A stretch of 64,000 bases of DNA. Source: Desulfobacterales bacterium (GTDB lineage Bacteria; Desulfobacterota; Desulfobacteria; Desulfobacterales; SpSt-501). The stretch is from assembly GCA_030834695.1 (NCBI GenBank), contig JAUQXK010000088.1, positions 1 to 64,000 of the forward strand. The letters are read 5' to 3'. Below are positions 27,522-47,855 of this stretch, in pieces (the stretch's first letter is position 1; each line of letters opens with the position of its first letter). The notes under the pieces were generated by a model. It was not told the DNA's origin. It ran no database searches and saw only the letters and a list, made by a program, of their open reading frames with translations. Position numbers and translations under genes: made by a program.

Positions 27522-28655
27522 ATGTCGGATCTAAGTTGGCTGCCAAGAGAATCAGGTCTTAAAAACCATTTTTTATGGGGTGACGAGCATTTCTCGGACA
27601 AAAGCCCCGGAGTCATTTACGAAAAGAAACCCATCCTCGACCCGCAGGGTAATCCGGTCAAAGACCTCTATTCCGCCTGGATCGTTCTGAATAACCCGAG
27701 CCAATACAACTCGTACACCACCGAAATGGTCAAGGGCGTGATCGCCGGCTTCCAGCGCGCTTCGGCCGACCCTTCCGTGGTGGCGGCGGTTTTCACAGCG
27801 ATGGGGGACAAGGCGTTCTGCACCGGCGGCAACACCAAGGAGTATGCCGAATACTATTCCGGCCGCCCCAACGAATACGGCCAATACATGGACCTCTTCA
27901 ACGGCATGGTGGACGGCATCCTGGGCTGCAAGAAGCCGACCATCTGTCGCGTGAACGGTATGCGCATCGCCGGCGGCCAGGAAATCGGCATGGCCTGCGA
28001 CACGACGCTGTCGAGCGACCTGGCCATTTTCGGCCAGGCCGGCCCCCGGCACGGGTCCGCGCCCGACGGCGGCAGTTCGGACTTCCTGCCCTGGATGCTT
28101 CCCGCCGAACTGGCCATGTGGAACTGCGTATCCTGCGAGATGTGGAGCGCTTATAAAATGCAACGACTGGGGCTCATCTCCAAGTGCGTCCCGGTCATCC
28201 GCGAGAGCGGCCAGTGGCTCCGCAACCCGGCCATCGTCACCGACGCCTACGTGGCCGACGGCGAGATCGTCTACGGCGAATTCAAGACCGGCGACGAAGC
28301 CAAGAAGGCCAGAGAACTCGTCCAAAAGGCCAAGACGGATTTTTCCCAGCTGGACGCGGAAGTCAACAAAATCCTCTGGACCTACACCAACCTGTTCCCC
28401 GGCTGCCTGATCAAGAGCGTGGAAGGGATCCGCCTCAAGAAGAAATTCTTCTGGGACCAGGCCAAGGTCATCAACCGCCACTGGCTCGCCGCCAACATGA
28501 ACTGCGAGGCCTACCTGGGCTTCAACGCCTTCAACACGAAAAAAATCACCGGCAGGGACGTAGTGGATTTCATCGAGTACCGCCGGCGCCAGGCCCGCGG
28601 CGACGCGTTTGACGCGGAGTTCATGGCCGCGGTGCTGGCCAAACCCCAAAAATAG
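27522..28655 (+). CDS. bamA: 6-oxocyclohex-1-ene-1-carbonyl-CoA hydrolase (ring-opening)
   Basis: A 377-aa crotonase-superfamily protein with features specific to BamA/Oah. These are the long N-terminus (LPRESGLKNHFLWGDEHFSD), SAWIVLNNPSQYNSYTTEMV, FCTGGNTKEYAEYYSGRPNEY, NGMRIAGGQEIGMACDTTLS, QAGPRHGSAPDGGSSDFLPW and the C-terminal NRHWLAANMNCEAYLGF. The enzyme hydrates and hydrolytically opens the alicyclic ring to give 3-hydroxypimeloyl-CoA, the marker step of anaerobic benzoyl-CoA degradation in obligate anaerobes and facultative denitrifiers. It is the first gene of the long plus-strand cluster, preceded by a promoter and a good ribosome binding site, with SDR and thiolase genes following. 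Confidence 0.96.
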   Translation: MSDLSWLPRESGLKNHFLWGDEHFSDKSPGVIYEKKPILDPQGNPVKDLYSAWIVLNNPSQYNSYTTEMVKGVIAGFQRASADPSVVAAVFTAMGDKAFCTGGNTKEYAEYYSGRPNEYGQYMDLFNGMVDGILGCKKPTICRVNGMRIAGGQEIGMACDTTLSSDLAIFGQAGPRHGSAPDGGSSDFLPWMLPAELAMWNCVSCEMWSAYKMQRLGLISKCVPVIRESGQWLRNPAIVTDAYVADGEIVYGEFKTGDEAKKARELVQKAKTDFSQLDAEVNKILWTYTNLFPGCLIKSVEGIRLKKKFFWDQAKVINRHWLAANMNCEAYLGFNAFNTKKITGRDVVDFIEYRRRQARGDAFDAEFMAAVLAKPQK

Positions 28656-34288: not shown

Positions 34289-34510
34289 ATGACCCGTGCG
34301 GAGGAGCTGGCCGCCCAGGGCTGGCGGCGCCAGGCCACCACCGATGAGCCGCGCCTCTCCGAAATGGCGGATCTGTATCGCCAAATCGGCATGGAAGTGC
34401 ACCTGGAGCCGTTTCATCCCGAGGAAGAAGAGGGCTGCATCGGCTGCCTGGCGGAATCCCCGGATCGCTACTGGACCATCTATATACGCAAAAGGGAGGG
34501 ATCGTCATGA
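34289..34510 (+). CDS. Small protein of unknown function (73 aa) before bamQ
   Basis: ATG 34289 to TGA 34510, overlapping bamQ by 4 nt (ATGA), so translation is probably coupled. The sequence is soluble and acidic with LYRQIGMEVHLEPFHPEEEE, then GCIGCLAES (a CxxC pair) and DRYWTIYIRK. The CxxC could bind metal or act in redox. It starts 7 nt after the fusion-gene stop. I do not recognise a named family; the tight packing suggests it is a real gene with a job linked to BamQ or to the FeS enzymes. Confidence 0.75.
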   Translation: MTRAEELAAQGWRRQATTDEPRLSEMADLYRQIGMEVHLEPFHPEEEEGCIGCLAESPDRYWTIYIRKREGSS

Positions 34511-35577
34511 GCATGATTTCCTGGCAGATGGTGGAACCGAAGAAACCCCTGCAACGCGTGGAAGCCCCGCTGCCGACGCCGGGCGCCGGCGAGGTCCGGC
34601 TGCGGGTGGTCGGCTGCGGCGTATGCCACACCGATCTCGGGTTTTACTACGACGGCGTGCGCACCAAGTCGCCGCTGCCCCTGACCCTGGGGCATGAGAT
34701 CAGCGGGATGGTCGATGCGGTCGGACCGGGCGCGGAGCGCTGGTCGGGCAAGGCGGTCCTGGTGCCGGCGGTCATGCCCTGCGGGGAATGCGATGTGTGC
34801 CGGCGCCGCTTCGGCAACATCTGCGCCGCCCAGAAGATGCCCGGCAACGACATCCCGGGCGGGTTTGCCACGCACATTGTGGTGCCGGCGAAGCAGCTAT
34901 GCGAGGTACCGCTGGGGAACGACGGCAAGCCGGCCGGCACTTCGGGTGTCCGTCTGGCCGAGCTGTCCGTGGTGGCCGATGCCCTGACGACCCCTTACCA
35001 GGCCATCCACGAATCGGGGCTGACCGACCAGGACACCGCCATCTTCGTGGGCGTCGGCGGGGTCGGCGGCTTCGGTGTCCAGATCGCCAAGGCGTTGGGG
35101 GCATTGGTTCTGGCCATCGATGTCGACGCGCAGAAGCTCGACGCCATCAGCGCTTACGCCGACCAGACCTTCAACGCCGCGCAGATGCCTTTCAAGGACC
35201 TGCGCAAGGCCGTTTCGGATGCGGTCAAGGCGAAGGGCCGGCGGCGCACGGAGTGGAAGATCTTCGAAACCTCGGGCACGGCCGCCGGACAGCAGACCGC
35301 CTTCGGCCTGCTCACCTTCGGATCCTCGCTGGCGGTGGTCGGGTTCACCATGGACACGGTCAACCTCCGCCTGTCGAACCTGATGGCGTTTCATGCCACC
35401 GCCCGCGGCAACTGGGGATGCGTTCCCGAGCACTACCCGGCGGCCCTGGATCTCGTACTCAGCGGCAAGGTTCAGCTCGGACCGTTTGTAAAGACCTTCC
35501 CGCTCGAACAGATCAACGATGTCTTTGAAATGGTTCACGGCCGCCGGATCCGCGAACGGCCGATCATGGTGCCGTGA
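34507..35577 (+). CDS. bamQ: 6-hydroxycyclohex-1-ene-1-carbonyl-CoA dehydrogenase
   Basis: A 356-aa zinc-dependent medium-chain dehydrogenase. The catalytic zinc region is CGVCHTDLGFYYDGVRTKSP with GHEISG. The structural zinc site is CGECDVCRRRFGNIC. The Rossmann motif is GVGGVGGFGVQIAKALGA near 185-202. The specific signatures MPGNDIPGGFATHIVVPA and the MAFHATARGNWGC region match BamQ/Had. It oxidises the hydroxy intermediate made by BamR to the 6-oxo compound hydrolysed by BamA, producing NADH. With bamA and bamR this completes the modified beta-oxidation of the dienoyl-CoA. Confidence 0.94.
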   Translation: MSMISWQMVEPKKPLQRVEAPLPTPGAGEVRLRVVGCGVCHTDLGFYYDGVRTKSPLPLTLGHEISGMVDAVGPGAERWSGKAVLVPAVMPCGECDVCRRRFGNICAAQKMPGNDIPGGFATHIVVPAKQLCEVPLGNDGKPAGTSGVRLAELSVVADALTTPYQAIHESGLTDQDTAIFVGVGGVGGFGVQIAKALGALVLAIDVDAQKLDAISAYADQTFNAAQMPFKDLRKAVSDAVKAKGRRRTEWKIFETSGTAAGQQTAFGLLTFGSSLAVVGFTMDTVNLRLSNLMAFHATARGNWGCVPEHYPAALDLVLSGKVQLGPFVKTFPLEQINDVFEMVHGRRIRERPIMVP

Positions 35578-35604: not shown

Positions 35605-37470
35605 ATGCACAAACTGTTGACGGACAAACCCGGCGACCAGATGATGCTGCTCGGCAATGAGGCCATCGCCCGCGGAGCCATCGAGGCCGGCGTCGGCTTT
35701 ACCAGCACTTATCCCGGCACCCCGTCCTCGGAGCTCTCGCTCAGCTTCTTCCAGATGTCCAAGGAGAGCGACCTGTACTTCGAGTACTGCACCAACGAAA
35801 AAGTCGCCGTGGAGGTTTCGGCCGGTGCCGCTGCCTGCGGCGTGCGCAGCATGGCCGTGATGAAGCACGTGGGCCTCAACGTGGCGGCCGACGCCCTGAT
35901 GACGCTGGCCTACGTGGGCGTCAAGGGCGGCATGGTCATCCTCACGGCCGACGACCCGGCCATGTTCTCCAGCCAGAACGAGCAGGACAACCGCTACTAT
36001 GCCAAAATCTCCGGCCTGCCCATGCTGGAGCCGTCCTCGGTCGAGGAGGCCCACCGCATCGTCGCGGATGCCTTCGACCTCTCCGAGCAGCTCCAGGAGC
36101 CGGTCCTGCTGCGAACCACCACGCGCATCAACCATTCCTCCGGCGTCGTCACCCTTGGCGCCATCCGGCCGCGCCGGACCCGTGGCAGCTTTGTCAAGGA
36201 CCCGCTCAATCTCGTGACGGTGCCGGCGGTTTCGCGCAAACTGCACGTCAAGCTGCTCCAGAACTACGAAAAGGCGCTCGAGCTGGCGGAAACCTCGCCC
36301 TGGAACCTGCGCGAAGGCGACGGCCCCTGGGGCATTCTGTGCAACGGCGTCAGCTACAACTACGTCAAGGACGCGGTGGGCGATCTCGGCATCGCAGCCA
36401 AGGTCCGCCTGCTCCGGATCGGGTTCTCGCATCCGCTCCCGCCCCGCAAGATCCGTGACTTCCTGCAGGGCTGCGAGAAAGTGCTCGTGGTCGAGGAAGG
36501 CGAGCCCTATCTGGAGGAGGGCGCCAAGGCCATCGCCCAGGAAGCCGGCCTCACCCTTCCGATCCGCGGCAAGGCCCCGGAGCTGCTCTCGCGGCTCTAT
36601 GAATTCGACCCGGCCATGGTCCGGCGCGTGGTCGGCGACTACTTCGGGGTGCCCTGGAAAGCTCGGCCCCCGGTCGATGTTTCGGACCTACCGCCCATCC
36701 CCCAGCGGCCGCCGACGCTCTGCGCCGGATGTTCTCACCGGGCGACCTACTATGAAGTTCGCAAGGCCGCCGAAGAGCTGGGCATCGAGACCCTCTATCC
36801 GAGCGATATCGGCTGCTACACGCTGGGGCTGCTGCCGCCGCTTTCAATGGCCGATTATCTGATCTGCATGGGATCCTCCACCGGCACGGCCGGCGGCTTC
36901 GCCCAGGCCAGCGGCCGCAAGGTCGTTTCGTTCATCGGCGACTCCACCTTCTTCCATTCCGGAATCCCCGGGCTGATCAACGCCGTTTTCAACCAGCACG
37001 ACCTCACGCTCGTCATCCTGGACAACGGCATCACCGCCATGACCGGCCATCAACCGAACCCCGGCGTGGACATGAGCCAGCTCAAGATGGAAGGCTACGG
37101 TCGGGTATCCATCGAAGCCGTCGTGCGCGCCCTGGGAGTGCCGCATGTGACGGTGATCAAGCCGTATAAAGTGAAGAAGAGCGTCGAGGCGATCAAGGAG
37201 GCGTTGCAGTTCAAGGGGGTCTCCGTGATCATCTCTCAGGAGCTGTGCGTGCTCTACGCCGCCAATCTCAAGCTGCCCCGGCGCAAGCCGTTCCAGGTGA
37301 GCGACAAGTGCCGCAACCACCGCGTGTGCATGACCCGGCTGGCCTGCCCGGCTTTTTATGTCTGGAACGAGCGCATCAAAATCGACGCAAACCTCTGCAC
37401 CGGCTGCGCGCTCTGCGCCCAGATCTGCCCGGAGAACGCGATCCTGCCGGTCAAGGAGGAGAAGAGATAA
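35605..37470 (+). CDS. iorA: Indolepyruvate:ferredoxin oxidoreductase, alpha subunit
   Basis: A 621-aa protein of usual length. The N-terminal pyrimidine-binding domain is LLGNEAIARGAIEAGVGFTS and YPGTPSSELS. A central TPP-binding domain has LCAGCSHRATYYEVRKA, SDIGCYTLGLLPP and the GDSTFFHSGIPGLINAV / LDNGITAMTGHQPNPG motif. The C-terminal ferredoxin domain has a first, less regular cluster (CRNHRVCMTRLACP) and CTGCALCAQICP. It oxidatively decarboxylates aromatic 2-oxo acids (phenylpyruvate, indolepyruvate) to arylacetyl-CoA, reducing ferredoxin. IorB overlaps its stop codon. This links aromatic amino acids to the aryl-CoA genes around it and supplies low-potential electrons. Confidence 0.95.
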   Translation: MHKLLTDKPGDQMMLLGNEAIARGAIEAGVGFTSTYPGTPSSELSLSFFQMSKESDLYFEYCTNEKVAVEVSAGAAACGVRSMAVMKHVGLNVAADALMTLAYVGVKGGMVILTADDPAMFSSQNEQDNRYYAKISGLPMLEPSSVEEAHRIVADAFDLSEQLQEPVLLRTTTRINHSSGVVTLGAIRPRRTRGSFVKDPLNLVTVPAVSRKLHVKLLQNYEKALELAETSPWNLREGDGPWGILCNGVSYNYVKDAVGDLGIAAKVRLLRIGFSHPLPPRKIRDFLQGCEKVLVVEEGEPYLEEGAKAIAQEAGLTLPIRGKAPELLSRLYEFDPAMVRRVVGDYFGVPWKARPPVDVSDLPPIPQRPPTLCAGCSHRATYYEVRKAAEELGIETLYPSDIGCYTLGLLPPLSMADYLICMGSSTGTAGGFAQASGRKVVSFIGDSTFFHSGIPGLINAVFNQHDLTLVILDNGITAMTGHQPNPGVDMSQLKMEGYGRVSIEAVVRALGVPHVTVIKPYKVKKSVEAIKEALQFKGVSVIISQELCVLYAANLKLPRRKPFQVSDKCRNHRVCMTRLACPAFYVWNERIKIDANLCTGCALCAQICPENAILPVKEEKR

Positions 37471-38066
37471 TGATGGAAACCAAACGACTTGTAATGGTAG
37501 CGGTCGGAGGACAGGGCAACCTGCTGGCATCGAGCGTCCTGGGGGAAGCGGCGCGATTGGCGGGGGTGCCCATGCGCATGAGCGAAATCCACGGCATGGC
37601 CCAACGCGGCGGGGTGGTCGAGTCCGCGCTGATTTTTGGCAACGCCCACAGCACGATCATATCCGACGGCGACGCCGACGTGCTGATGGGCTTCGAACCG
37701 GCGGAGACCCTGCGGGCGCTCGCCAAGTGCAACCGCAACTCGGTGGCCATTACCAACCTGGCGCCGCTGATGCCGTTCACGGTCAACATCGGCCAGGGGG
37801 TTTATCCGGATTTGAATAAACTTCAGGCATTGATCCGCGCCAAGACCGCGCGGTTGATCGCCTTCAACGCCACCGCGCTGGCCCGCGAGGCCGGCAATGT
37901 CTTGTCGGTGAACATGGTGCTGCTGGGTGCACTGACCCAAACCGCCGTGCTGCCGTTGACCGTCGACCACGTCAAGGCGGCCATGCAGCACAAGACCAAG
38001 CCGGCTTTTCTGGATGCGAACCTCAAAGCGTTTGATCTGGGGTTCGCCGCCGCCCAGAACGCCTGA
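37470..38066 (+). CDS. iorB: Indolepyruvate:ferredoxin oxidoreductase, beta subunit
   Basis: A 198-aa protein with two adjacent ATG codons at 37470 and 37473; the first overlaps the iorA stop (TAATG). The gamma-type 2-oxoacid oxidoreductase fold shows VAVGGQGNLLASSVLGEAAR and MSEIHGMAQRGGVVESALIF, where the HGMAQRGG motif is diagnostic. It binds CoA/2-oxo acid jointly with IorA. It is strictly paired with iorA. Confidence 0.95.
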   Translation: MMETKRLVMVAVGGQGNLLASSVLGEAARLAGVPMRMSEIHGMAQRGGVVESALIFGNAHSTIISDGDADVLMGFEPAETLRALAKCNRNSVAITNLAPLMPFTVNIGQGVYPDLNKLQALIRAKTARLIAFNATALAREAGNVLSVNMVLLGALTQTAVLPLTVDHVKAAMQHKTKPAFLDANLKAFDLGFAAAQNA

Positions 38067-38159: not shown

Positions 38160-39506
38160 ATGGCGACCCAATCGCGCGCAGCCAAAGAGGACAGCCGAAA
38201 GTACTGGGATGAAAAGTTCGAAACGATGCCGACCGCCGAGCTTCAGAAGTTCCAGCTTCGCAAACTCAAGGAAACCGTGGCCTGGGCGTACGAGCGCATT
38301 CCCTTTTACCACCGCAAGCTGGACGAAGCCGGGATAAAACCGAGCGGCATCAAGTCCCTGGACGATCTCGCCAAATTGCCGTTCACGGTCAAGAACGACC
38401 TGCGCGACAACTATCCCTTCGGCCTGTGCGCGGTGCCGCTCGAGGAGGTCGTCCGGGTGCACGCCTCTTCGGGCACCACCGGCAAGCCGATCACCGGCCC
38501 CTACACGGCCGAGGATCTGGAGCAGTGGACCGAGTGCATGGCGCGCAACCTGTGGGCGGCCGGCGTGCGGCCCGACGACATCGCTCAGAATGCATACGGC
38601 CATGGCCTTTTCACCGGCGGGCTGGGCTTCCACCAGGGGCTGACCCGCCTCGGCTGTGCGGTGGTGCCAACGAGTTCGGGCCTCACGGAGCGCCAGATCA
38701 CCCTCATGAAAGACTTCGGCGCCACGGCGCTCTTTTCGACGCCCTCCTACGCCCTGACGATCGCCGAACGCGCGGCGGAAATGAAAGTGGACATCCGCGA
38801 GCTGCCCCTGAGGGTCGGCGTCTTCGGAGCGGAGCCCTGGTCCACGGCCATGCGCCAGGAGATCGAGGAGCGCATGGGGATCAAGGCCCACGAGGCTTAC
38901 GGGCTGACCGAACAGGGCGGCCCCGGCGTCGGCTTCGACTGCGTCGCGCAGGACGGCATCCATCTCAACGAGGATCATTTCCTGGCCGAAATCGTCGATC
39001 CGGTCACTCTCGAACCGGTTCCGCTCGGGGAAAAAGGCGAGCTGGTCTTCACGGCCCTGCAGCGCCGGGCGATGCCCCTGCTGCGCTACCGCACCAAGGA
39101 CATCACCCGTCTGCGGCGCGAGAAATGCCCCTGCGGCCGCACGTTTATCAAGATGGACAAGATCTTCGGGCGCTCGGACGACATGCTGATCATCAGCGGC
39201 GTCAACGTGTTCCCCTCCCAGATCGAATCCCTGCTGCTCGAGATCGCCGAGGTGGAGCCCCAGTACCGTCTGGTGGTGCGCAAGAAAGGCTACCTCGATC
39301 AACTCATCGTCCAGGTCGAGGCCAAGAAGGAAGTCTACGACGCCGGTCCGGCCAGACGCCTGGAGGTGGCCGCCAAGGTCATGGCACACATCAAGGGCAT
39401 GATGGGCATCGGCGTCGACGTCGAGCTGGTGGAGGCCAAATTCATCAACCGCAGCGAGGGCAAAGCGCTGCGGGTGGTCGACGAACGTCCCAAACAGCTG
39501 CGGTGA
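38160..39506 (+). CDS. Phenylacetate-CoA ligase (PaaK-like)
   Basis: A 448-aa adenylate-forming enzyme of PaaK size. Motifs are VAWAYERIPFYHRKLDEAG near the N-terminus, the P-loop VHASSGTTGKPITGPYT, YGLTEQGGPGVGFDC, YRTKDITRL with zinc-like CPCGRTF, and FGRSDDMLIISGVNVFPSQI. It forms arylacetyl-CoA from free phenylacetate-type acids with ATP. Located right after iorAB, it may recapture arylacetates released from the IOR reaction, or run in reverse to conserve energy as ATP. Start ATG 38160 follows GGGGGAGG at 38145-38152. Confidence 0.93.
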   Translation: MATQSRAAKEDSRKYWDEKFETMPTAELQKFQLRKLKETVAWAYERIPFYHRKLDEAGIKPSGIKSLDDLAKLPFTVKNDLRDNYPFGLCAVPLEEVVRVHASSGTTGKPITGPYTAEDLEQWTECMARNLWAAGVRPDDIAQNAYGHGLFTGGLGFHQGLTRLGCAVVPTSSGLTERQITLMKDFGATALFSTPSYALTIAERAAEMKVDIRELPLRVGVFGAEPWSTAMRQEIEERMGIKAHEAYGLTEQGGPGVGFDCVAQDGIHLNEDHFLAEIVDPVTLEPVPLGEKGELVFTALQRRAMPLLRYRTKDITRLRREKCPCGRTFIKMDKIFGRSDDMLIISGVNVFPSQIESLLLEIAEVEPQYRLVVRKKGYLDQLIVQVEAKKEVYDAGPARRLEVAAKVMAHIKGMMGIGVDVELVEAKFINRSEGKALRVVDERPKQLR

Positions 39507-39636: not shown

Positions 39637-40602
39637 ATGACGCAACCATCCGAATTCAAACCCACGCGGTTCGCGGTGGTCGGCGCCGGTCCGGTGGGCT
39701 GCATCGTTGCGGCTTTTCTGGCCAGGGGCGGCTACGAGGTCTCCCTGTGCGACGTGGTGCCGGCCCTGCTGGCACCAGCCCTCGACCCGGGCATCCAATT
39801 GGAGGGTGCCGAGGCCTTTCGGCAAAAAGTCACCCGCACCTGCCTGACGATCGATGATTTGGCCGTCTACCACCCTGAAGTGATCTTCATCACCGTTAAG
39901 GCCAATGCGTTGCCCCTGATCGCCTCCGCCATCGAGGGCTTTTACCGGGAAGGCATGTACGTCATCAGTTGGCAGAACGGCATCGACACGGAGTTGGAGC
40001 TTACCAAGGTCCTGGGACGCAGCGGCGTCATGCGGGCCGTGGTCAATTACGGTTGCGGGCTGGTGGCGCCGGGGCATGTGCGCCTGCCGTTCCATCACCC
40101 GCCGCATTACCTTCAGGAGCTCGACCCGAAATCCAAGGGCGCGACGGAGGCGATTGCGCGGGCGCTGTCCGCCTGCGGCCTGACCACGGAGGCGACGCAG
40201 GACATCATCTCCATGGTCTGGCGCAAGGGCGTGCTGAACGCCTGCATGAATCCCGTGTGCGCCGTGACCGGCCTCACCATGAACCGCGCCATGACCGACC
40301 CCATCGTCTTCCAGACCGTCAATGCCCTCGTGCGGGAGTGCGTCCGGGTCGCGCGCGCGAACGAGATCAACCTGGGCTGGGACTTCTACCCCCACGCGAT
40401 TGAGTACATGAGCAAAGCCGGCGATCACAAACCGTCCATGTTGATGGACATCGAGGCCGGCCGCCGCACCGAAGTGGACTTCATCAACGGCAAGTTCGTG
40501 GAGTACGGCCAGCGCGCCGGAATCGAAACCCCCTTCAATAGGACTTTGCTGTCGCTGGTAAAGGGCCTGGAGTCGAGCATCGAGTCCAGGAAGAAAGGAT
40601 AG
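39637..40602 (+). CDS. ApbA/PanE-type 2-dehydropantoate reductase family protein
   Basis: A 321-aa NADP-type Rossmann protein. It shows FAVVGAGPVGCIVAAFLARG at 11-30, IFITVKANALPLIASAI, SWQNGIDTE and the C-terminal catalytic-Lys region WRKGVLNACMNPVCAVTG with GRRTEVDFINGKFVEYG. Ketopantoate reductase is the best-known activity, reducing a 2-oxo acid with NADPH. Its place between PaaK and the BcrD-type activator argues for a catabolic 2-oxo- or hydroxy-acid dehydrogenase instead of pantothenate synthesis, but that is inference. GGAGG precedes ATG. Confidence 0.85.
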   Translation: MTQPSEFKPTRFAVVGAGPVGCIVAAFLARGGYEVSLCDVVPALLAPALDPGIQLEGAEAFRQKVTRTCLTIDDLAVYHPEVIFITVKANALPLIASAIEGFYREGMYVISWQNGIDTELELTKVLGRSGVMRAVVNYGCGLVAPGHVRLPFHHPPHYLQELDPKSKGATEAIARALSACGLTTEATQDIISMVWRKGVLNACMNPVCAVTGLTMNRAMTDPIVFQTVNALVRECVRVARANEINLGWDFYPHAIEYMSKAGDHKPSMLMDIEAGRRTEVDFINGKFVEYGQRAGIETPFNRTLLSLVKGLESSIESRKKG

Positions 40603-40625: not shown

Positions 40626-41420
40626 ATGCTGAATACGGCTCCCCTTTATGTCGGCGCGGATGTCGGGGCTTCGCGCACCAAGGTGGCGATCCTGGACGCG
40701 TCCAAAACCCTGGTCGGCTATGCCGTGCTGAAATCCGGCACCGATTTCACGGCCACGGCCCGTCAATGCCTGATGCAGTCCCTGCAGATGGCCGGAGCCC
40801 TCGAAAGCGCCGTCGCCAACGCCGTCTCGACGGGTTACGGCCGCCACAACGTCGACTTCGCCCGCGACTCCCGCACCGAAATCGGCTGCCACGGCGGCGG
40901 CTGCTACCACTACTTCCCGGTGGCCATCTCCATCATCGACATCGGCGGCCAGGACAACAAGGTCATCAAACTGGACGAAGCCGGCCGCCGCATCAGCTTC
41001 AAGATGAACCGCAAGTGCGCCGCCGGAACCGGCGCGTTTCTGGAGGAGATGTCCGCGCGGCTGGATATTCCCCTGGAAGGAATGAACGACCTGGCCGCGC
41101 AGTCGACGGACATGGTCAAGCTGGGCAGCTTCTGCACGGTTTTTTCGGCGACCGAAGTGCTCGAGAACATCCGCCACGGCAAAAAGATCGAAGACATCGT
41201 CAAGGGAGTGTTTTTCTCGGTCATCCGTCGGGTGCTGGAAATGGACTCCCTGTCTCAGAACGTGGTCATGACCGGCGGGGTGGTGGCGCACAATCCGCAC
41301 CTCGTTCAGATGATGGAAGAACTCATCGGGCGGCCGATCCGCGTCCCCGAAAAACCCCAGTTGACCGGCGCCATCGGGGCGGCGCTGTATGCGATGAACG
41401 CAGCCGACGAAAGAGACTAG
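40626..41420 (+). CDS. BcrD/HgdC-type ASKHA ATPase activator
   Basis: A 264-aa protein of the BadF/BadG/BcrA/BcrD ATPase family. The ATP-binding motif is GADVGASRTKVAILD (residues 9-23). Other motifs are VSTGYGRHN, IDIGGQDNKVIKLD, and the two cluster cysteines in NRKCAAGTGAFLEEMS and GSFCTVFSATEVLENIRHG. C-terminal VMTGGVVAHNP and GAIGAALYA complete the fold. A homodimer would share one [4Fe-4S] and drive ATP-dependent electron transfer to the next protein. Length fits HgdC/BcrD, not the longer BcrA. Only one such ATPase is present, whereas class I benzoyl-CoA reductases carry two. Confidence 0.92.
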   Translation: MLNTAPLYVGADVGASRTKVAILDASKTLVGYAVLKSGTDFTATARQCLMQSLQMAGALESAVANAVSTGYGRHNVDFARDSRTEIGCHGGGCYHYFPVAISIIDIGGQDNKVIKLDEAGRRISFKMNRKCAAGTGAFLEEMSARLDIPLEGMNDLAAQSTDMVKLGSFCTVFSATEVLENIRHGKKIEDIVKGVFFSVIRRVLEMDSLSQNVVMTGGVVAHNPHLVQMMEELIGRPIRVPEKPQLTGAIGAALYAMNAADERD

Positions 41421-41529
41421 AAAATACAACAGTTGCCCCGTGCGCCCGTTGGCCCGTGGAACCGTTCAAGAGGCGGTCTCTTCTATCCAATAACGGGCCA
41501 ACGGCTTAACGAACATAGGAGGAATTTAT
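41421..41529. other. Intergenic segment with GTTGGCCCGTGG inverted repeat
   Basis: CCGTTGGCCCGTGGAACCG and, ~40 bp later, AACGGGCCAACGG form imperfect arms between the activator and its partner gene. AGGAGGAA precedes ATG 41530. Confidence 0.45.
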
Positions 41530-42780
41530 ATGCCTGAAGAGAAAAAAGTCGTTCGCAAAAAGATAGCGGCCGCCGCAGACCTCAACAACTTCATGCGCGA
41601 TTACTACCTGGAGCTGGATGCCGCCGCTCAGAAGGGCGCGCCCAAGATCGCCTGGTGCACGAGCGTCGGCCCGGCGGAAATCCTGCGCGCCTTCGGCTTC
41701 CAGGTTTATTTTCCGGAGACGCATTCGGCCATGCTGGGGGCCACGCGCATGGCGACCGAGTTCATTCCGGAGGCGAACGCCATCGGCTATTCACCCGACA
41801 TCTGCTCGTATCTCACCGCCGACATCGGCGCGTTCTTGAAGGGCGTCACGCCGCTCGAGAAAGCCTTCAACATCAAGAGCGTTCCGAAACCGGATGTGCT
41901 GGTGTTCAACACCAACCAGTGCCGCGACGTCCAGGACTGGTTCAACTGGTACGGGGAAAAATTCGACGCCCCGGTGCTGGGCGTGCACACTTACCGCGGA
42001 GTGAGCGAGGTGACCGAGAAGCACATTTACTCGATCGCCAAGCAGCTGGAAGCCCTGGTCCCGCCCCTGGAGAAAATCACCGGCAGGAAATTCAAACTGG
42101 ACGACCTGAAGCGCGCGGTGGCCCTGTCGCGCGAGTGCTCGGAGCTATGGAAGAAAATTCTCGACACGGCTTCGGCCAAGCCCGCCCCGTTGACCTTTTT
42201 CGACGGCACGACGTTGATGGGCCCGGCCGTGGTGGGCCGCGGGACTCAAAAAGCCGTCGATGTCTACAAGATCCTTCTGGCCGAGTTGGAGGACCGCATC
42301 AAAAAAGGCGAAGGTGCGATCGAAAACGAAAAATTCCGGATCTACTGGGACGGCATGCCGGTGTGGGGCCGGCTGAGCACCCATTCCCAGCTCTTCGCGG
42401 CGCTCAACGCCAACGTGCTCGCATCCACCTACTGCAACAGCTGGATCTTCTCGGCTCTGGACCCGCAAGATCCCTTCAACAGCATGGCGCGCGCCTACAC
42501 GGAGCTTTTCATCGTGCGCGCGGACGAGGCCAAGGAGACCTACATCAAAAACATGCTGGCGTTTTTCAAGGTCGACGGCATCATCTACCACGACGCCAAG
42601 ACCTGCCCCAACAACTCCAACTGCCGCTACGGCATGCCCCAGCGCCTGGAGAAGCAGACCGGCATCCCGAGCCTGACCATCAACGGCGACCTGAACGACC
42701 TGCGGATGATCTCCGACGAACAGACCAAGACCAACGTCGAGGCCTTCATCGAGCAGCTCCAGGAGCGGCGGCACGCTTAG
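41530..42780 (+). CDS. BcrB/HgdB-type FeS subunit (2-hydroxyacyl-CoA dehydratase / benzoyl-CoA reductase family)
   Basis: A 416-aa protein of the HgdB/BcrB/BzdO family. It has AWCTSVGPAEILRAFGFQVY, the segment SPDICSYLTADIGAF, NTNQCRDVQDW, YCNSWIF near 300 and the C-terminal HDAKTCPNNSNCRYGMPQR with INGDLNDLRMISDEQ. Seven or more cysteines could hold a [4Fe-4S] or larger cluster. The C-terminal pattern is most like BcrB-type subunits of ATP-dependent class I benzoyl-CoA reductase, but the BcrC and BcrA partners are not in the window. Alternatives are a homodimeric double-cubane-cluster protein or an acyl-CoA dehydratase. Function is inferred only from family and neighbours (activator directly upstream, CoA ligases downstream). 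Confidence 0.82.
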   Translation: MPEEKKVVRKKIAAAADLNNFMRDYYLELDAAAQKGAPKIAWCTSVGPAEILRAFGFQVYFPETHSAMLGATRMATEFIPEANAIGYSPDICSYLTADIGAFLKGVTPLEKAFNIKSVPKPDVLVFNTNQCRDVQDWFNWYGEKFDAPVLGVHTYRGVSEVTEKHIYSIAKQLEALVPPLEKITGRKFKLDDLKRAVALSRECSELWKKILDTASAKPAPLTFFDGTTLMGPAVVGRGTQKAVDVYKILLAELEDRIKKGEGAIENEKFRIYWDGMPVWGRLSTHSQLFAALNANVLASTYCNSWIFSALDPQDPFNSMARAYTELFIVRADEAKETYIKNMLAFFKVDGIIYHDAKTCPNNSNCRYGMPQRLEKQTGIPSLTINGDLNDLRMISDEQTKTNVEAFIEQLQERRHA

Positions 42781-42937: not shown

Positions 42938-45028
42938 ATGCTGGAGTCCCTATTTCGACCCAAGGCCGTGGCCGTCATCGGCGCTTCGTCCAAGGAGCTT
43001 TCCATCGGCAATCGGGTGATCAGGAACCTGATCGATTTCGGCTTCCGGGGCAGCATCTATCCGATCAACCCCAGCGCCGACGAAATCCGCGGCATCAAGG
43101 CCTACAAATCGATCCTGGACTGCCCGGACGACGTCGACGTGGTCCACATGGTCATCCCCGCCAAATTCGTGCCCCAGGCCGTGGAGGACTGCGGCAAGAA
43201 GGGGGTCAAGCACATCATCATCAACTCGGGCGGCTTCGGCGAGACCGGCGCCGAGGGTGCCGCCATCGAAAAGGACTTCCTGGAACGCGCGCGGCGCTAC
43301 GGTATCCGCATCCTGGGGCCGAACTGCCAGGGCGTCATCAACACCGACGCCGAGATCCGCGCTTACTGCAACTTCACCTTCACGAAACCGGACCCGGGCT
43401 TCATCTCCATCGTCGCCCTGAGCGGCGGCGTGGCCGAAGTCATCCACCAGGCCTTCGCCCAGATGGGGGTCGGCACCCGCATCTATGCCTCCAACGGCAA
43501 CGCCGTGGACGTGACCATCCCGGACATCATGAACTACCTGGGCGAGGACGAGGGCACCCGGGTCATCGTGACCTATGTCGAAGGCCTGCGCGATCCGGCC
43601 AATTTCATGAAAACCGCCACCGCGGTCGCCGCACGCAAGCCCATCCTGGCCATGAAGGCCGGCCGCACCAAGGAAGGCGCCAAGGCCGCGGCCTCGCACA
43701 CCGGCGGGCTTGCCAAGGAGGACATCGCCACCGATCTGATCTTTAAGAAGGCCGGCGTGCTCTCCTTCCGCGACGAGGGCCACCTGATCCAGGCCGCCGC
43801 CGCGTTCGCCACCCAGCCGATCCCCCAGGGCAACCGGATCGGCATCATCACCAACACCGGCGGCCCGGCGGTCATCGCCACGGATGTGCTGGTCGCCGCC
43901 GGCTGCACCCTGCCCCCGCTCTCGGAACCCACCCGCGCCCTGCTCAGGGGGAAGCTCTACCCCGAGGCGTCGATCGGCAACCCGGTGGATGTGCTCGCCA
44001 CCGGCACGGCCCAGCACTACCGGGCCTGCATGGACGCCATGATGGCGGACGACAGCTTCGACTGCGTCTTCGTCAACTTCGTGACCCCGTTCTTCGTGGA
44101 CAACGAGAGCATCGCCCGCGAGATCGTGGCCGTCAGCCAGCAGCGCCGCAAGCCGCTGGTCTGCAACCTCATGACCGACAAGCAACAATGGTCGGAAGTC
44201 GTCCGCATCCTGCGCGAGGGCGGCGTTCCGTGTTACCCGCTTCCCGGCGAAGCCGCCCGGGCCATGGCGGCCCTGGTCCACTACCACTTCATCCGCCGCC
44301 GCGAAACCGCCGCGGCCCGGACCTTCGCCGACGTCCAGCCGGACAAGGCCCGCAAGATCATGGCCAAGGCCCGTGCGGCCGGCCGCACGCAGCTGGCTGC
44401 TGCGGAAGTTTACGGCATCCTCGACGCTTACAAAATACCGGCAGCCAAGTGGCGCCTGGCGGCCGGCCCGGCCGAGGCCGCCGAGGCCGCCGCCAAGATC
44501 GGATTTCCGGTGGTGGTCAAGGCCGATGCCGAGTCCGTGCTGCACAAGAGCGACATGGGCGCGGTGGCGGTGAATCTCGGCAGCGCCAGCGCCGTAAAGC
44601 GCGCCGCCGCTCAGATGCAAAAGGCCCTCACCGCCCCGGACCTGCGCTTCTTGGTACAGAAATACCTTCCCGGCGGGCTGGAGATTATCATGGGCGCCAA
44701 GGCCGAAGAAGGCCTCGGCCATGCGGTCGTGTTCGGGCTGGGCGGCATCCACGTCGAAGTCCTGAAGGATGTGGTTTTCAATCTCACCCCGGTCAGCGCT
44801 CCGGAAGCACGCGAAATGCTCGGCGCCGTCAAGAGCGCCCCGCTGTTGAGCGGCGTGCGCGGGCAGGCCGGCGTCAACCGCGAAAAGCTTGCGGAGATCC
44901 TGCAGCGGCTGTCTCAATTGCTGACCGACCATCCTGACATTCAGGAAATGGATCTTAATCCGATCATGGCCTTCGCCGACAAAGCGTTCGTGGTGGATGC
45001 AAGAATCAGCATAAAAGAACCCGCCTGA
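42938..45028 (+). CDS. ADP-forming acyl-CoA synthetase (acetate-CoA ligase type)
   Basis: A 696-aa NDP-forming acyl-CoA synthetase with all subdomains in one chain. The CoA-binding domain shows VAVIGASSKELSIGNRVI and IINSGGFGETG. The succinyl-CoA ligase-like domain has the phospho-His in AASHTGGLAKEDI (~residue 257). The C-terminal ATP-grasp carries VVKADAESVLHKSDMGAVAV and the second-shell LVQKYLPGGLEIIMGAK. It converts acyl-CoA + ADP + Pi to acid + ATP + CoA, or the reverse. With IOR/PaaK it would save energy from arylacetyl-CoA or other CoA esters. Substrate specificity cannot be read. Confidence 0.94.
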   Translation: MLESLFRPKAVAVIGASSKELSIGNRVIRNLIDFGFRGSIYPINPSADEIRGIKAYKSILDCPDDVDVVHMVIPAKFVPQAVEDCGKKGVKHIIINSGGFGETGAEGAAIEKDFLERARRYGIRILGPNCQGVINTDAEIRAYCNFTFTKPDPGFISIVALSGGVAEVIHQAFAQMGVGTRIYASNGNAVDVTIPDIMNYLGEDEGTRVIVTYVEGLRDPANFMKTATAVAARKPILAMKAGRTKEGAKAAASHTGGLAKEDIATDLIFKKAGVLSFRDEGHLIQAAAAFATQPIPQGNRIGIITNTGGPAVIATDVLVAAGCTLPPLSEPTRALLRGKLYPEASIGNPVDVLATGTAQHYRACMDAMMADDSFDCVFVNFVTPFFVDNESIAREIVAVSQQRRKPLVCNLMTDKQQWSEVVRILREGGVPCYPLPGEAARAMAALVHYHFIRRRETAAARTFADVQPDKARKIMAKARAAGRTQLAAAEVYGILDAYKIPAAKWRLAAGPAEAAEAAAKIGFPVVVKADAESVLHKSDMGAVAVNLGSASAVKRAAAQMQKALTAPDLRFLVQKYLPGGLEIIMGAKAEEGLGHAVVFGLGGIHVEVLKDVVFNLTPVSAPEAREMLGAVKSAPLLSGVRGQAGVNREKLAEILQRLSQLLTDHPDIQEMDLNPIMAFADKAFVVDARISIKEPA

Positions 45029-45061
45029 AAACGGCTGATTCTTTTGGAGGGAGGCAAAACC

Positions 45062-46627
45062 ATGGCAAGCTGGCTCAACCTGGGTCAGATCTTGAAGGTC
45101 AATGCGAAGAAGTTCCCGCACACGGTCGCGCTGAAGGACCCCGAACGCGGCTTCACCTATCCGGAGGTCAACCGCCGGGTCAACCAGCTGGCCCATCGGT
45201 TGTCGGCCCTCGGCCTGAAAAAAGGCGACAAGGTCGCGGTGCTGCTGGAAAACAGCATCGAGATCGTCGAGGCCTTCCTCGCCACGGCCAAGACGGGCAT
45301 CGTCATCGTCCCGATCAACTTCCGGCTGATCAGCTCGGATGTGGAATACATCGCCGACAACGCCGACGCCAAGGCCTTCATCGTCCACGACGAGTTCGTG
45401 GGCACCCTGGAGCCGATCCGGCCGCGGCTGCAAAAAATCCCGGCGGCGAACTATATCGTGGTCGGCCGCCCCACACCCGGGTACCGCACCTACGAGGAGT
45501 TCATTGCCGGCGCTCCCGAAACGGAGCCGCCGGGCGAGGTGCTGCCGCAGGACACCTGGATCCTGATCTACACCTCCGGCACGACCGGCAAGCCCAAGGG
45601 TGTGGTGCGGACCCACGAGTCGCATATCGCTTTTTACCTGATCAACGCCATCGACTTCGGCTTCAACGAGCACGACGTCTGCATGAACGTCATGCCGCTG
45701 TGCCATATCAATTCGACGTTTTTCACCTTCACCTTCACCTATATCGGCGCATCGGTGTACATTCATCCCGCCCGCTCCTTCCGGGCGGAGGAAATCCTTG
45801 AAATCGTCGCGCGCGAAAAAATCACCTTCATCTCCCTGATCCCGACCCACTACAACCTGATCCTGAGCGCCGGCCCGGAAGGACGCCGACATGATCGCAC
45901 CTCGATCCGCAAGCTCTTGTGCTCGTCCGCGCCGGTGCGCAAGAGCATGAAGCTCGCCATCATGGAGTTTTTCCCCGGCGTCCAACTCTACGAGGCCTAT
46001 GGTTCGACCGAGGCCGGCATCGTCACCGTGCTCAAGCCCGAGTACCAGATGAAGAAGCTCGGTTCGATCGGCTTCGAGTCTCTGGGCACCGAGTTCGTGA
46101 AAATCCTGGATGCCGATAGAAACGAGGTCCCGGCCGGCCAAGTGGGCGAACTTTATTCGCGCGGACCGATGTTGTTCAGGGAATACTACAAGTTGCCGGA
46201 GAAGACGGCGAGTTCCTTCCATCAGGGCTGGTTCTCCGCCGGCGACATGGCCACGCGGGACGAGGACGGGTTCTTCCACATCGTCGACCGCAAGGACAAC
46301 ATGATCATCACCGGCGGCGAGCACGTGTATCCCAGCGAAGTCGAGGAGGCCGTCGGCAGCCATGAATGCGTGTTCGACTGCGCGGTGGTGGGCCTGCCCG
46401 ATGAAAAGTGGGGCGAAAGGGTGGCCGCCGTGGTCATCACCCGGCCCGGCGTCGATCCCCGGAGCATCACCAAGCAGGACATCATGGAATGCTGCCGGGA
46501 AAAGCTGGCCGGCTACAAGCGCCCGAAGGAAGTCATCTTCATCTCGCAGGAGGAAATGCCCCGCACGCCGACCGGAAAAATCCTGCACCGCATCCTGAAG
46601 GACCGGCTTCGAGTTCAGAAGAAGTGA
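45062..46627 (+). CDS. AMP-forming acyl-CoA synthetase
   Basis: A 521-aa ANL-superfamily enzyme. Start ATG 45062 follows GGAGGGAGG; an in-frame ATG at 45044 is less suitable. Key motifs are IYTSGTTGKPKGVVRTH (P-loop), YEAYGSTEAG, SAGDMATRDEDGFFHIVDRKD and the catalytic lysine in TPTGKILHRILKDR. It resembles CaiC/long- to medium-chain acid ligases and is candidate for activating benzoate, cyclohexene carboxylate or fatty acids. It begins 33 bp after the ADP-forming synthetase; two ligases in a row may handle uptake and release of different acids. Confidence 0.93.
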   Translation: MASWLNLGQILKVNAKKFPHTVALKDPERGFTYPEVNRRVNQLAHRLSALGLKKGDKVAVLLENSIEIVEAFLATAKTGIVIVPINFRLISSDVEYIADNADAKAFIVHDEFVGTLEPIRPRLQKIPAANYIVVGRPTPGYRTYEEFIAGAPETEPPGEVLPQDTWILIYTSGTTGKPKGVVRTHESHIAFYLINAIDFGFNEHDVCMNVMPLCHINSTFFTFTFTYIGASVYIHPARSFRAEEILEIVAREKITFISLIPTHYNLILSAGPEGRRHDRTSIRKLLCSSAPVRKSMKLAIMEFFPGVQLYEAYGSTEAGIVTVLKPEYQMKKLGSIGFESLGTEFVKILDADRNEVPAGQVGELYSRGPMLFREYYKLPEKTASSFHQGWFSAGDMATRDEDGFFHIVDRKDNMIITGGEHVYPSEVEEAVGSHECVFDCAVVGLPDEKWGERVAAVVITRPGVDPRSITKQDIMECCREKLAGYKRPKEVIFISQEEMPRTPTGKILHRILKDRLRVQKK

Positions 46628-46661: not shown

Positions 46662-47855
46662 ATGCTCACGAAAGCGTTCATTCCCTACAAAGGCTATTTT
46701 AGCTCCCCGTTCGCCCGCTGGCAGGGCAGCATGGCGAATGAACACGCCATCATCCTAGCGGCCGAGACCGCCAAGCGCTGGCTGGCGGAGAAGCGCATCG
46801 AACCCAAGGGGTTTGACTACGTCTACCTGGGGCTCACGGTTCACCAGCACCAGGGCTTTTACGGCGGCCCCTGGGCGGCCGCGCTGATGGGAGCGGTCGG
46901 AGTTCCGGGTCTGTGGGTGAGCCAGGCCTGTTCGACGTCCACCGTCGCCATCTACTCCGCGGCGATGGGCGTGGAAACCGGGCTTTTCAGCGCGCCCTTC
47001 TGCCTGATGACCGACCGCTGTTCCAACGGCCCGCATGCGGTCTGGCCCAATCCCGCCGGCCCGGGCGGGCAGGTCATTTCCGAGAACTGGCTGATGGACA
47101 ACTTCAACAAGGATCCGTGGGCCGGCCAGGCCATGATCAAGACCGCCGAAAACGTGGCCAAGGAAGAGGGCATCACGCGCAAGGAATGCGACGAGGTCGC
47201 GCTGCAGCGCTATAAGCAATACCAGGATGCGCTCGCCAACGACCGCGAGTTCCAGAAACGCTATATGTATCCGGTGATGATCAAAGTCTCCAAGAAGCAG
47301 ACCCTCATGTTCGACGCGGACGAGGGCGTCATGAGCACCACGGCCGAAGGTCTGGCCGGGCTCAAGCCGGTATTGCCCGACGGTGTGCATACGTTCGGAG
47401 CCCAGACCCACCCGGCCGACGGCCACTGCGGGTTGATCGTCGCCAGCCGCGAGAAGGCCAAATCCCTGAGCGCGGATCCGTCTGTGGAAATCCAGATCCT
47501 CTCCTATGGCTACGCCCGGGTCAAACCCGCCTTCATGGCGGCAGCGGTCTACCCTGCCGCCCAGATGGCCCTCGACGGCGCCAACATCAAAGCCAAAGAC
47601 GCAAAAGCCATTAAGACCCACAACCCCTTTGCCGCCAATGACGTGTTCCTGGCCAAGAAGCTCGGCGTGGATGTGATGGCCGGGATGAACAACTTCGGTT
47701 CGTCGCTGATCTTCGGCCATCCCCAGGGGCCGACCGGGGGGCGGCTGATCATCGAAGGCATCGAGGAAGTGGTGATGAAGGGCGGCGGCTATCTCCTGTT
47801 TGCCGGTTGCGCCGCCGGGGACACCGCCGCTGCCATGGTGCTGAAGATCGGCTGA
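46662..47855 (+). CDS. Thiolase (acetyl-CoA acetyltransferase family)
   Basis: A 397-aa thiolase-fold protein. The nucleophilic Cys is in VSQACSTSTVAIYSA (near 89), followed by THNPFAANDVFLAKKLGVD, NNFGSSLIFGHPQGPTGGR and the C-terminal second cysteine in LLFAGCAAGDTAA. GHP and the C-terminal Cys are conserved, but NNFGSS instead of the usual NxxGG is a variant sequence. It probably performs the acetyl-CoA-releasing step of beta-oxidation for a different chain from the SCPx-type thiolase at 29.5 kb. It is 34 bp after the ligase and followed immediately by the E1-like gene. Confidence 0.88.
   Translation: MLTKAFIPYKGYFSSPFARWQGSMANEHAIILAAETAKRWLAEKRIEPKGFDYVYLGLTVHQHQGFYGGPWAAALMGAVGVPGLWVSQACSTSTVAIYSAAMGVETGLFSAPFCLMTDRCSNGPHAVWPNPAGPGGQVISENWLMDNFNKDPWAGQAMIKTAENVAKEEGITRKECDEVALQRYKQYQDALANDREFQKRYMYPVMIKVSKKQTLMFDADEGVMSTTAEGLAGLKPVLPDGVHTFGAQTHPADGHCGLIVASREKAKSLSADPSVEIQILSYGYARVKPAFMAAAVYPAAQMALDGANIKAKDAKAIKTHNPFAANDVFLAKKLGVDVMAGMNNFGSSLIFGHPQGPTGGRLIIEGIEEVVMKGGGYLLFAGCAAGDTAAAMVLKIG

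Follow-up and report, generated by a model that had tools for sequence, protein, structure and literature searches.

Within a stretch of 64,000 nucleotides (the window) from the genome of a Desulfobacterales bacterium (assembly GCA_030834695.1, contig JAUQXK010000088.1, positions 1 to 64,000), two adjacent genes encode an ATPase activator and a single catalytic subunit of the superfamily that comprises the benzoyl-CoA reductases and the 2-hydroxyacyl-CoA dehydratases (BCR/HAD). The window is part of a 124.5-kb contig (C20) in a genome of 5.65 Mb and 149 contigs, listed as 100% complete with 4.96% contamination. The two genes are as follows:

40626..41420, + strand: ASKHA ATPase activator, 264 amino acids (TIGR00241; cluster cysteines C131 and C170)
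41530..42780, + strand: catalytic HGD-D protein (hereafter HGD) of the HadB/BzdO type, 416 amino acids (PF06050; no partner subunit gene on the contig)

A first-pass annotation of the window had described this pair with the same positions and lengths, and with both activator cluster cysteines, and all of this was confirmed; it had also proposed a BcrB-type, homodimeric, ATP-driven reductase, perhaps acting on an aryl- or cyclohexadienoyl-CoA. The pair is regarded here, on balance, as an (R)-aryllactyl-CoA dehydratase with one kind of catalytic subunit, which would convert phenyllactyl-CoA to cinnamoyl-CoA on the way to benzoyl-CoA.

Family and Fold of the Gene Pair

The two open reading frames (ORFs) lie on the same strand with a gap of 109 bases between them, and an AGGAGG site precedes the PF06050 ORF. 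Profile searches of contig C20 returned the window gene as the sole PF06050 match (219.6 bits against a cut-off of 28.4), while the activator passed both TIGR00241 (209.7 bits; cut-off 125.4) and PF01869 (143.7 bits; cut-off 31.5). With the PF06050 and PF01869 cut-offs both passed, the gene pair belongs to the BCR/HAD superfamily. Among proteins with solved structures, the activator is closest to that of 2-hydroxyisocaproyl-CoA dehydratase (1.7e-51) and, nearly equal, to MbdQ (1.5e-50); its cysteines C131 and C170 are conserved in 72 of 72 aligned sequences, that of the window included. A promoter and terminator scan recovered 4 promoter-like sites (2.6 expected) and 15 terminator-like sites (13.2 expected) and was thus uninformative.

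By sequence, HGD matched HadB best among the proteins of solved structure (1e-54), followed by MbdO (2.7e-34), BzdO (9e-25), and a double-cubane protein (3.4e-7). HadB was also its top NCBIfam match at 233.6 bits, under the equivalog cut-off of 750. Its scores fell below the cut-offs of the class I reductase subunits (BcrB, 156.8 vs. 486.6 bits; BzdO, 98.3 vs. 448.6 bits) and below that of the double-cubane cluster protein (DCCP) model NF040772 (71.6 vs. 350 bits), for which a DCCP-type relative (L141) scored 471.9 bits. An AlphaFold2 model of the HGD monomer, built from an 81-sequence alignment, reached a predicted local distance difference test score (pLDDT) of 95.1 and a predicted template modeling score (pTM) of 0.92. 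The three top rows of a Foldseek search with this model were all HadB chains (best E-value 2.7e-29, TM 0.90/0.93), and VIA-align superposed the model on HadB with a Z of 50.0 and 1.8 Å over 395 residues, at 29% identity across the structural alignment. Other relatives followed with Z values of 47.4 (BzdO), 42.8 (MbdO), 33.6 (DCCP), and 32.7 (HadC); rows from outside the BCR/HAD family, all with Z < 7, were not used. HadB being the nearest relative by both sequence and fold, the BcrB-type assignment of the first-pass annotation is replaced by a HadB-type one.

For phylogenetic placement, a maximum-likelihood tree was computed from 48 sequences, including 15 sampled orthologues; BzdO, BcrB, and Fld were left out, such that MbdO is its sole catalytic chain from a four-subunit reductase. 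With 100/100 support, the tree separates an N-type/DCCP half of the family from a catalytic half, and the 15 orthologues form one clade (100/100) within the latter. This clade shares an open fork (85/85) with HadB and a number of relatives, at a point where several long branches meet, and is separate from MbdO; clustering within a characterized four-subunit class I reductase, which the first-pass annotation had named as an outcome that would overturn its proposal, was not seen. The sampled relatives of 33–34% identity in genomes G008, G014, G022, and G031 adjoin an N-type gene.

Active-Site Residues and Additional Cysteines

In a scan covering 84,980 species genomes, 309 relatives of HGD were confirmed, and the best 80 (67–95% identity) were used as named loci; orthologues were found in Desulfobacterales, Anaerolineae, Thermoplasmata, and Spirochaetes. 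Residue conservation was assessed with 79 orthologues, comprising the window protein and 78 of these 80 loci (L064 and L127 were dropped, as their ORFs fell outside the cluster). Cysteines C43, C92, C131, C203, C302, and C359 are invariant in all 79, and C365 is present in 66. Three of the invariant residues, C92, C131, and C359, align with the cluster cysteines of HadB (C84, C117, and C346) and are the putative ligands of a catalytic [4Fe-4S] cluster. Residues E63 and S45 align with HadB E55 and S37, and passages of PMC11971306 support a catalytic role for such a Glu/Ser couple, the matching residues of BzdO being Glu65 and Ser44. The position of the acid/base His131 of BzdO, third after the second cluster cysteine, is occupied by Val134 in HGD, by Val120 in HadB, and by Phe in MbdO; the latter indicates that the histidine is a feature specific to BzdO. 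For HadB, PMC11971306 gives alanine at this position where the present alignment gives Val120.

The remaining cysteines invite comparison with the double-cubane proteins, taking the ligand numbers of BzdN from PMC11971306 and the corresponding role in DCCP from the alignment. C302 shares a column with the BzdN ligand C263 and with DCCP C309, and C43 lies one column ahead of BzdN C36 and DCCP C76. Four of the six BzdN ligands are thereby in register with HGD cysteines (C92, C131, C302, and C359) and a fifth is one column off (C43); an equivalent of the sixth, BzdN C293, was not found in the HGD alignment. C203, in turn, is located in a helix of the model (residues 190–215) opposite an Asn of HadB, so that invariance by itself says little for a role as ligand. 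C43 and C302 may be relics, may act as catalytic thiols, or may bind an extra center. A distant homologue (L055, contig C134 of genome G011) has cysteines at both the C43 and C302 positions; its genome is rich in PF06050-like genes, with 12 matches.

One Subunit or Two

No second subunit of the HadC type, as found in heterodimeric 2-hydroxyacyl-CoA dehydratases, was detected on the window contig. The window genome as a whole contains five PF06050 stretches: the window gene, a pair on contig C15, a fragment on contig C65, and a sub-threshold stretch on contig C30. The C15 pair (L016:9001-11324, G000:C15) consists of tandem HadC- and HadB-like genes, named for their best NCBIfam matches, both of which are under cut-off; a PF01869 match was not found on that contig. 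This pair is possibly a second, two-subunit dehydratase of the same genome. By eye, it lies downstream of ORFs resembling a thiolase and a hydratase/dehydrogenase fusion. The C65 fragment is at a contig end near an ATPase and appears DCCP-like by eye.

Ten PF01869 stretches are present in the window genome. On contig C38 (L017:9583-11384), a BzdQ-type ATPase (TIGR03192, 411.9 bits; cut-off 380.2) is accompanied by a second ATPase, with no PF06050 match on that contig. Homologues of bcrA and bcrC elsewhere in the genome, which the first-pass annotation had listed as evidence against its proposal, were thus encountered in part, as a BzdQ-type ATPase and a HadBC-like pair on two different contigs. 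Long proteins (open frames of 1072–1464 amino acids) with two BcrAD-type ATPase stretches each are also encoded, at G000:C5:11896-13380, C21:17412-19139, and C29:41390-42844; such proteins were seen in 8 of 9 relative genomes searched.

With PF06050, 16 orthologue-bearing relative genomes were searched. Three of them, G035 (95% complete), G038 (93%), and G006 (80%), gave no match other than the orthologue, and in G034 (97%) the sole other match was under cut-off. In G035 and G038, every PF01869 match beyond the neighboring activator falls in a single long protein (approximately 1,500 residues) that carries two ATPase stretches. In the closed genome G016, two PF06050 genes are present in addition to the orthologue, with an ATPase between them; one of the two (L144) is in the DCCP clade, and the other (L158) was not in the tree. 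Since no second PF06050 match occurs in the near-complete genomes G035 and G038, HGD likely works as a homodimer with one kind of catalytic subunit; the predicted model covers the monomer. The minimal arrangement of one activator and one HGD subunit put forward in the first-pass annotation is accordingly retained as a gene pair, an activator being present at 73 of the 80 loci, with its homodimeric state as probable.

Gene Neighborhood and Its Conservation

The pair is embedded in a cluster of genes on the + strand, as follows:

27522..28655, + strand: 6-oxocyclohex-1-ene-1-carbonyl-CoA hydrolase (Oah/BamA; TIGR03200, 557.8 bits, cut-off 464.5)
32242..34281, + strand: 3-hydroxyacyl-CoA dehydrogenase/enoyl-CoA hydratase fusion, proposed for the beta-oxidation of cinnamoyl-CoA
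34507..35577, + strand: 6-hydroxycyclohex-1-ene-1-carbonyl-CoA dehydrogenase (Had; TIGR03201, 473.8 bits, cut-off 338.7)
35605..37470, + strand: indolepyruvate:ferredoxin oxidoreductase alpha (IorA; TIGR03336, over cut-off)
37464..38066, + strand: indolepyruvate:ferredoxin oxidoreductase beta (IorB; under equivalog cut-offs)
38160..39506, + strand: phenylacetate-CoA ligase (PaaK) type (TIGR02155, 544.5 bits; cut-off of 646.3 not reached)
39637..40602, + strand: PanE/ApbA-like dehydrogenase (TIGR00745, over cut-off)
42938..45028, + strand: ADP-forming acyl-CoA synthetase type (under equivalog cut-offs), proposed 2-hydroxyacyl-CoA or acyl-CoA ligase
45044..46627, + strand: AMP-forming acyl-CoA ligase, proposed aryllactate-CoA ligase
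46662..47855, + strand: thiolase, proposed benzoylacetyl-CoA thiolase

With Oah and Had both over their cut-offs, the benzoyl-CoA lower-pathway cluster recognized in the first-pass annotation is borne out. The pair is preceded by IorA, IorB, the PaaK-type ligase, and the PanE-like protein, and followed by the ADP-forming synthetase type, the AMP-forming ligase, the thiolase, and a ThiF-like protein. Upstream, together with Oah, Had, and the hydroxyacyl-CoA dehydrogenase/hydratase fusion, are a short-chain dehydrogenase/reductase, a thiolase-like protein, and a hydratase domain (PF00378); still further upstream are parts of a tripartite ATP-independent periplasmic (TRAP) transporter (DctP and DctM) and a BKACE protein. 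The PanE-like protein is proposed to be a D-2-hydroxyacid (aryllactate) dehydrogenase.

Across the 80 loci, flanks of ≤10 kb on each side were examined and contig ends truncate many of the loci; the neighbor counts are therefore lower bounds, that of Oah above all. By tblastn, HGD was accompanied by the activator (73 loci), the PanE-like protein (63), the ADP-forming synthetase (59), and the AMP ligase (58), and less often by IorB (29), the hydroxyacyl-CoA dehydrogenase/hydratase (29), PaaK (27), the thiolase (27), IorA (26), Had (12), and Oah (4). The four loci with Oah (L081, L097, L100, and L112) are all from Chloroflexi; the Oah of L100 was tested and passes TIGR03200. Where the activator was called as an ORF (69 loci), fewer than 400 bases separate it from the HGD gene in 55, and in 7 Chloroflexi loci it lies 4.6–4.8 kb downstream on the same strand. 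A protein of the paired-ACT-domain type is encoded directly upstream of PanE in 17 loci, and one of the CBS-ACT type in 5, four of them from Chloroflexi (one member of each type was tested); these neighbors hint at amino-acid sensing. A tungsten aldehyde:ferredoxin oxidoreductase type is found near the module in 13 loci of Desulfobacterales, Chloroflexi, and Thermoplasmata, with L100:16726-18612 and L140:17624-19525 as examples; a protein of this type in the window genome is L024 (G000:C149). Its identification as BamB was ruled out, as all 13 match L024 best and share 28–38% identity with BamB.

The association of HGD with the benzoyl-CoA pathway was examined further among 291 genomes of the order, using E-value thresholds of 1e-100 for HGD and 1e-80 for Oah. 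HGD was found in 77 genomes, Oah in 86, and both in 63 (Fisher odds ratio 37, p = 1.5e-30, uncorrected for phylogeny), with Oah but no HGD in 23. HGD occurs under 30 family labels, of which 28 include genomes with both genes. In 22 of the 63, both genes are on one contig, 11.5–16 kb apart in 17 and 375 kb to 2.8 Mb apart in 5. The count of 77 is an under-count; G001 and G017, scored as lacking HGD, carry contig-end fragments at 95 and 87% identity.

Several further observations were made during these searches. Matches at 53–56% identity in G049, G063, G154, and G071 (G071:C1:1200893-1202098) form a possible subgroup that may act on another substrate; the G071 copy is approximately 1 Mb from a closer orthologue in the same genome. 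Nine listed orthologue matches contain one in-frame stop (e.g., G142:C45:30805-32052 and G070:C103:5885-7132), and as these mostly align to residue 415–416, early ends near the C-terminus are likely. Loci L132 and L133 are on an identical 46,715-base contig with the same assembler node number in the archaeal metagenome-assembled genomes CSMAG_991 and CSMAG_1135, which suggests that the contig was binned twice; CSMAG_991 has a second copy, L115.

Relation to Published Physiology

Genome G016, taken as that of Desulfococcus multivorans DSM 2059, carries the module at 2.791–2.797 Mb, with HGD (69% identity), the activator (68%), PanE (59%), an ACT-domain-like ORF, and IorBA (40%). The module adjoins two ligases, the AMP ligase at 67.5% identity and another at 32%; beyond these are ORFs resembling TRAP, sensor kinase, and response regulator genes, followed by genes for a thiolase (66%) and a hydroxyacyl-CoA dehydrogenase/hydratase (68%); the window thiolase is 63–66% identical to two thiolases of this hotspot. 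Two BamB genes are found at 2.740–2.752 Mb and Oah at 2.803 Mb, with HGD, activator, and PanE 12 kb from Oah. Passages of PMC5109826 describe two D. multivorans clusters at 2.77 Mbp whose formation is specific to phenylacetate and phenylpyruvate, and the G016 module region matches them at the level of the clusters. By counting ORFs between named anchors, its HGD, activator, and PanE putatively correspond to Dmul_C24850-70, which the same passages connect to the conversion of phenyllactate to phenylpyruvate.

According to these parts of PMC5109826, phenylacetate, phenylpyruvate, and phenyllactate all support growth of D. multivorans, which is without PadB and PadEFGHI, and the last conversion to benzoyl-CoA is described there as unclear; a hydratase, a dehydrogenase, and a thiolase are assigned to phenylglyoxylate formation. 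These three activities are what the beta-oxidation of cinnamoyl-CoA needs, and for this reason HGD is placed at the step from phenyllactyl-CoA to cinnamoyl-CoA. A similar sequence, phenylpyruvate to cinnamoyl-CoA to benzoyl-CoA, is proposed in the sections of PMC13416013 that concern the benzene-degrading strain BzS1, where the dehydratase is left unassigned and a singular gene sharing 30% identity with FldB is mentioned.

Comparison With Known Systems

HGD and its activator share with HadBC and its activator (PDB 3o3m and 4eht) the fold of the catalytic subunit, the three cluster cysteines, the Glu/Ser couple (E55/S37 in HadB), and a two-cysteine activator, but differ from them in having no HadC-type gene beside HGD, in the additional invariant C43 and C302, and in an identity of 29%. 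As HGD lacks the two-subunit feature of the 2-hydroxyacyl-CoA dehydratases, it is set apart as a variant of that group. The open-licence papers searched yielded no report of a one-subunit 2-hydroxyacyl-CoA dehydratase. FldABC, the phenyllactyl-CoA dehydratase of Clostridium sporogenes, is by its description like the HGD pair in the proposed reaction, phenyllactyl-CoA to cinnamoyl-CoA. Fld is presented in the relevant passages of PMC13416013 as a heterotrimer with a CoA-transferase subunit, whereas the HGD module has ligases and one HGD subunit. BzdNOPQ and MbdONPQ likewise have an O-type catalytic subunit of the same fold and ATPase activation; unlike the HGD pair, they comprise four subunits, including one of the N-type, and BzdO has the acid/base His131. 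DCCP with DCCP-R also combines an HGD-D protein and an activator, is a homodimer (as is likely for HGD), and has a cysteine at the distal-cubane position (C302 in HGD). However, DCCP belongs to the N-type half of the tree, a double cubane of the BzdN type has six ligands, and HGD is far under the NF040772 cut-off. In the family overview given by PMC11971306, the dehydratases and ring reductases are described as heterodimeric and DCCP as homodimeric, with TudS as a single-domain relative of different function.

Proposed Function and Mechanism

In the proposed pathway, the PanE-like enzyme would interconvert arylpyruvate and aryllactate, and an adjacent ligase would form the CoA ester of the latter. 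By analogy with the known family, the activator ATPase, its cluster held by C131 and C170, would then hand one low-potential electron to HGD, where the putative [4Fe-4S] cluster (C92, C131, and C359), near E63 and S45, would turn the (R)-2-hydroxyacyl-CoA into a ketyl radical. The hydroxyl group would leave and the electron would be recycled, phenyllactyl-CoA giving cinnamoyl-CoA. Hydratase, dehydrogenase, and thiolase would cleave cinnamoyl-CoA to benzoyl-CoA and acetyl-CoA, and the benzoyl-CoA would feed the class II pathway of BamB, Oah, and Had.

A wider scheme, offered tentatively and thought doubtful as a whole, would make the HGD pair the missing step of an undescribed anaerobic route by which sulfate reducers degrade phenylacetate and aromatic amino acids. 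It would begin with phenylacetyl-CoA, reductively carboxylated by IorAB to phenylpyruvate, which would be reduced to phenyllactate, activated, and converted by the HGD pair to cinnamoyl-CoA and thence to benzoyl-CoA and acetyl-CoA; this route would replace the Pad pathway, and C43 and C302 would be relic double-cubane ligands. The carboxylation by IorAB, which phenylacetate itself would require, is conjectural. The passages of PMC5109826 read IorAB in the decarboxylating direction, opposite to that proposed. A precedent for the reverse direction was sought in PMC7356843, in passages of which acetate is carboxylated reductively, 3-methylbutyrate is carboxylated directly, and phenylalanine is formed from phenylacetate and phenylpyruvate.

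Alternative Explanations

The pair may instead be a dehydratase, again with one kind of subunit, whose substrate is a 2-hydroxyacyl-CoA of aliphatic or branched type (leucine-derived, lactyl, or 2-hydroxyglutaryl), with the link to aromatic compounds limited to certain lineages. The substrate of HadB is leucine-derived; Oah and Had were recovered in only 4 and 12 of the 80 loci, those of Thermoplasmata and Spirochaetes having neither, and 14 of the 77 HGD genomes have no Oah. Flanks of ≤10 kb, however, miss an Oah at 11.5–16 kb, as in 17 genomes, and Oah is present in 63 of the 77 genomes and within 16 kb in 17 of the 22 same-contig cases. The IorAB and PaaK-type neighbors, the presence of Oah beside the module in four Chloroflexi loci, and the ties of the D. 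multivorans cluster to phenylacetate and phenylpyruvate in the pertinent passages of PMC5109826 also argue for an aromatic substrate, and an aliphatic one is considered unlikely. The proposal of the first-pass annotation, a minimal ATP-driven reductase of aryl-CoA or cyclohexadienoyl-CoA, is less probable still and was set aside. MbdO and BzdO, which reduce aryl-CoA esters, are the next-best relatives after HadB, the activator is almost as near to MbdQ as it is to its counterpart in the 2-hydroxyisocaproyl-CoA dehydratase system, and the pair lies beside Oah and Had. Against this, no BzdN-like partner adjoins the pair, Val134 replaces the His131 of BzdO, the fold is nearest to HadB, and the neighbors are those of 2-oxo- and 2-hydroxyacid conversion and CoA ligation. 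BamB is indeed absent from the window, as the first-pass annotation had observed, but not from the genome: among its ten PF01314 proteins, L028 on contig C25 matches the Geobacter BamB at 1254 bits (4z3w), and with a class II enzyme encoded, the pair need not be a ring reductase. Class I reductases, moreover, use ATP stoichiometrically and are found in facultative anaerobes according to the part of PMC11971306 that treats them. That the pair is a fragment of a class I reductase was ruled out by its fold, the profile cut-offs, the His131 position, the missing subunits (one HGD and one ATPase on the window contig, where the full set has two ATPases besides N and O), and the BamB encoded in the genome.

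A simple DCCP was excluded by the tree and the NF040772 cut-off, and C43 and C302 leave a hybrid open, in which they and the three cluster cysteines of a homodimer would hold an extra or altered metal center for multi-electron reduction of a substrate. C302 occupies the column of BzdN C263 and DCCP C309, C43 is one column off, neither varies among the 79 orthologues, and the family has a known homodimer in DCCP according to the overview in PMC11971306. This is nonetheless judged improbable to a high degree, given the missing equivalent of BzdN C293, the one-residue shift of C43, the low NF040772 score, the position of HGD in the other half of the tree, and the example of C203, which weakens the argument from invariance. 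The direction of the reaction might also be reversed, as dehydratases of the 2-hydroxyacyl-CoA type are reversible. Hydration of an enoyl-CoA to a 2-hydroxyacyl-CoA, release of CoA, oxidation by PanE, and decarboxylation by IorAB would then amount to an anaerobic alpha-oxidation, for each step of which the module has a candidate gene, including an ADP-forming synthetase type able to conserve ATP. Since beta-oxidation genes of the same cluster take cinnamoyl-CoA straight to benzoyl-CoA, this would be a detour without obvious use, and of all the explanations it is given the least credence.

Several findings weigh against a one-subunit aryllactyl-CoA dehydratase itself. With respect to composition, 12 of the 16 searched genomes hold at least one further PF06050 gene, the HadC-like gene on another contig of the window genome makes a partner in trans possible there, and the dehydratases in the passages of PMC11971306 and the Fld enzyme in those of PMC13416013 are heterodimeric and heterotrimeric, respectively. 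The HadB equivalog cut-off is far from reached, and HadB has no cysteine at the positions of the invariant C43 and C302, which a plain dehydratase model leaves unexplained. As to the substrate, the solved matches of the PanE-like protein are all labeled ketopantoate reductases in the PDB (19 of 19), and the absence of Oah at the threshold used from the 14 HGD genomes, and of Oah and Had from the flanks of the archaeal and spirochaete loci, means that the substrate may be broader. Finally, genome G244, taken as Desulfobacula toluolica Tol2, an organism that passages of PMC5109826 treat as a degrader of phenylacetate and phenylalanine, has Oah and three PF06050 matches but no orthologue at an E-value of 1e-100; the route is therefore not general, and sulfate reducers have at least one other solution.

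Significance

If the catalytic-type subunit does act alone, the HGD pair would be the smallest machinery for this chemistry and would show how such an enzyme can do without the electron-relay subunit. It is also a candidate for the gap before benzoyl-CoA in the D. multivorans pathway, as that gap is presented in the passages of PMC5109826 cited above. Given the spread of HGD through 77 of 291 genomes of the order and into Anaerolineae, Thermoplasmata, and Spirochaetes, the pair may matter for the turnover of aromatic compounds and protein in anoxic sediments.

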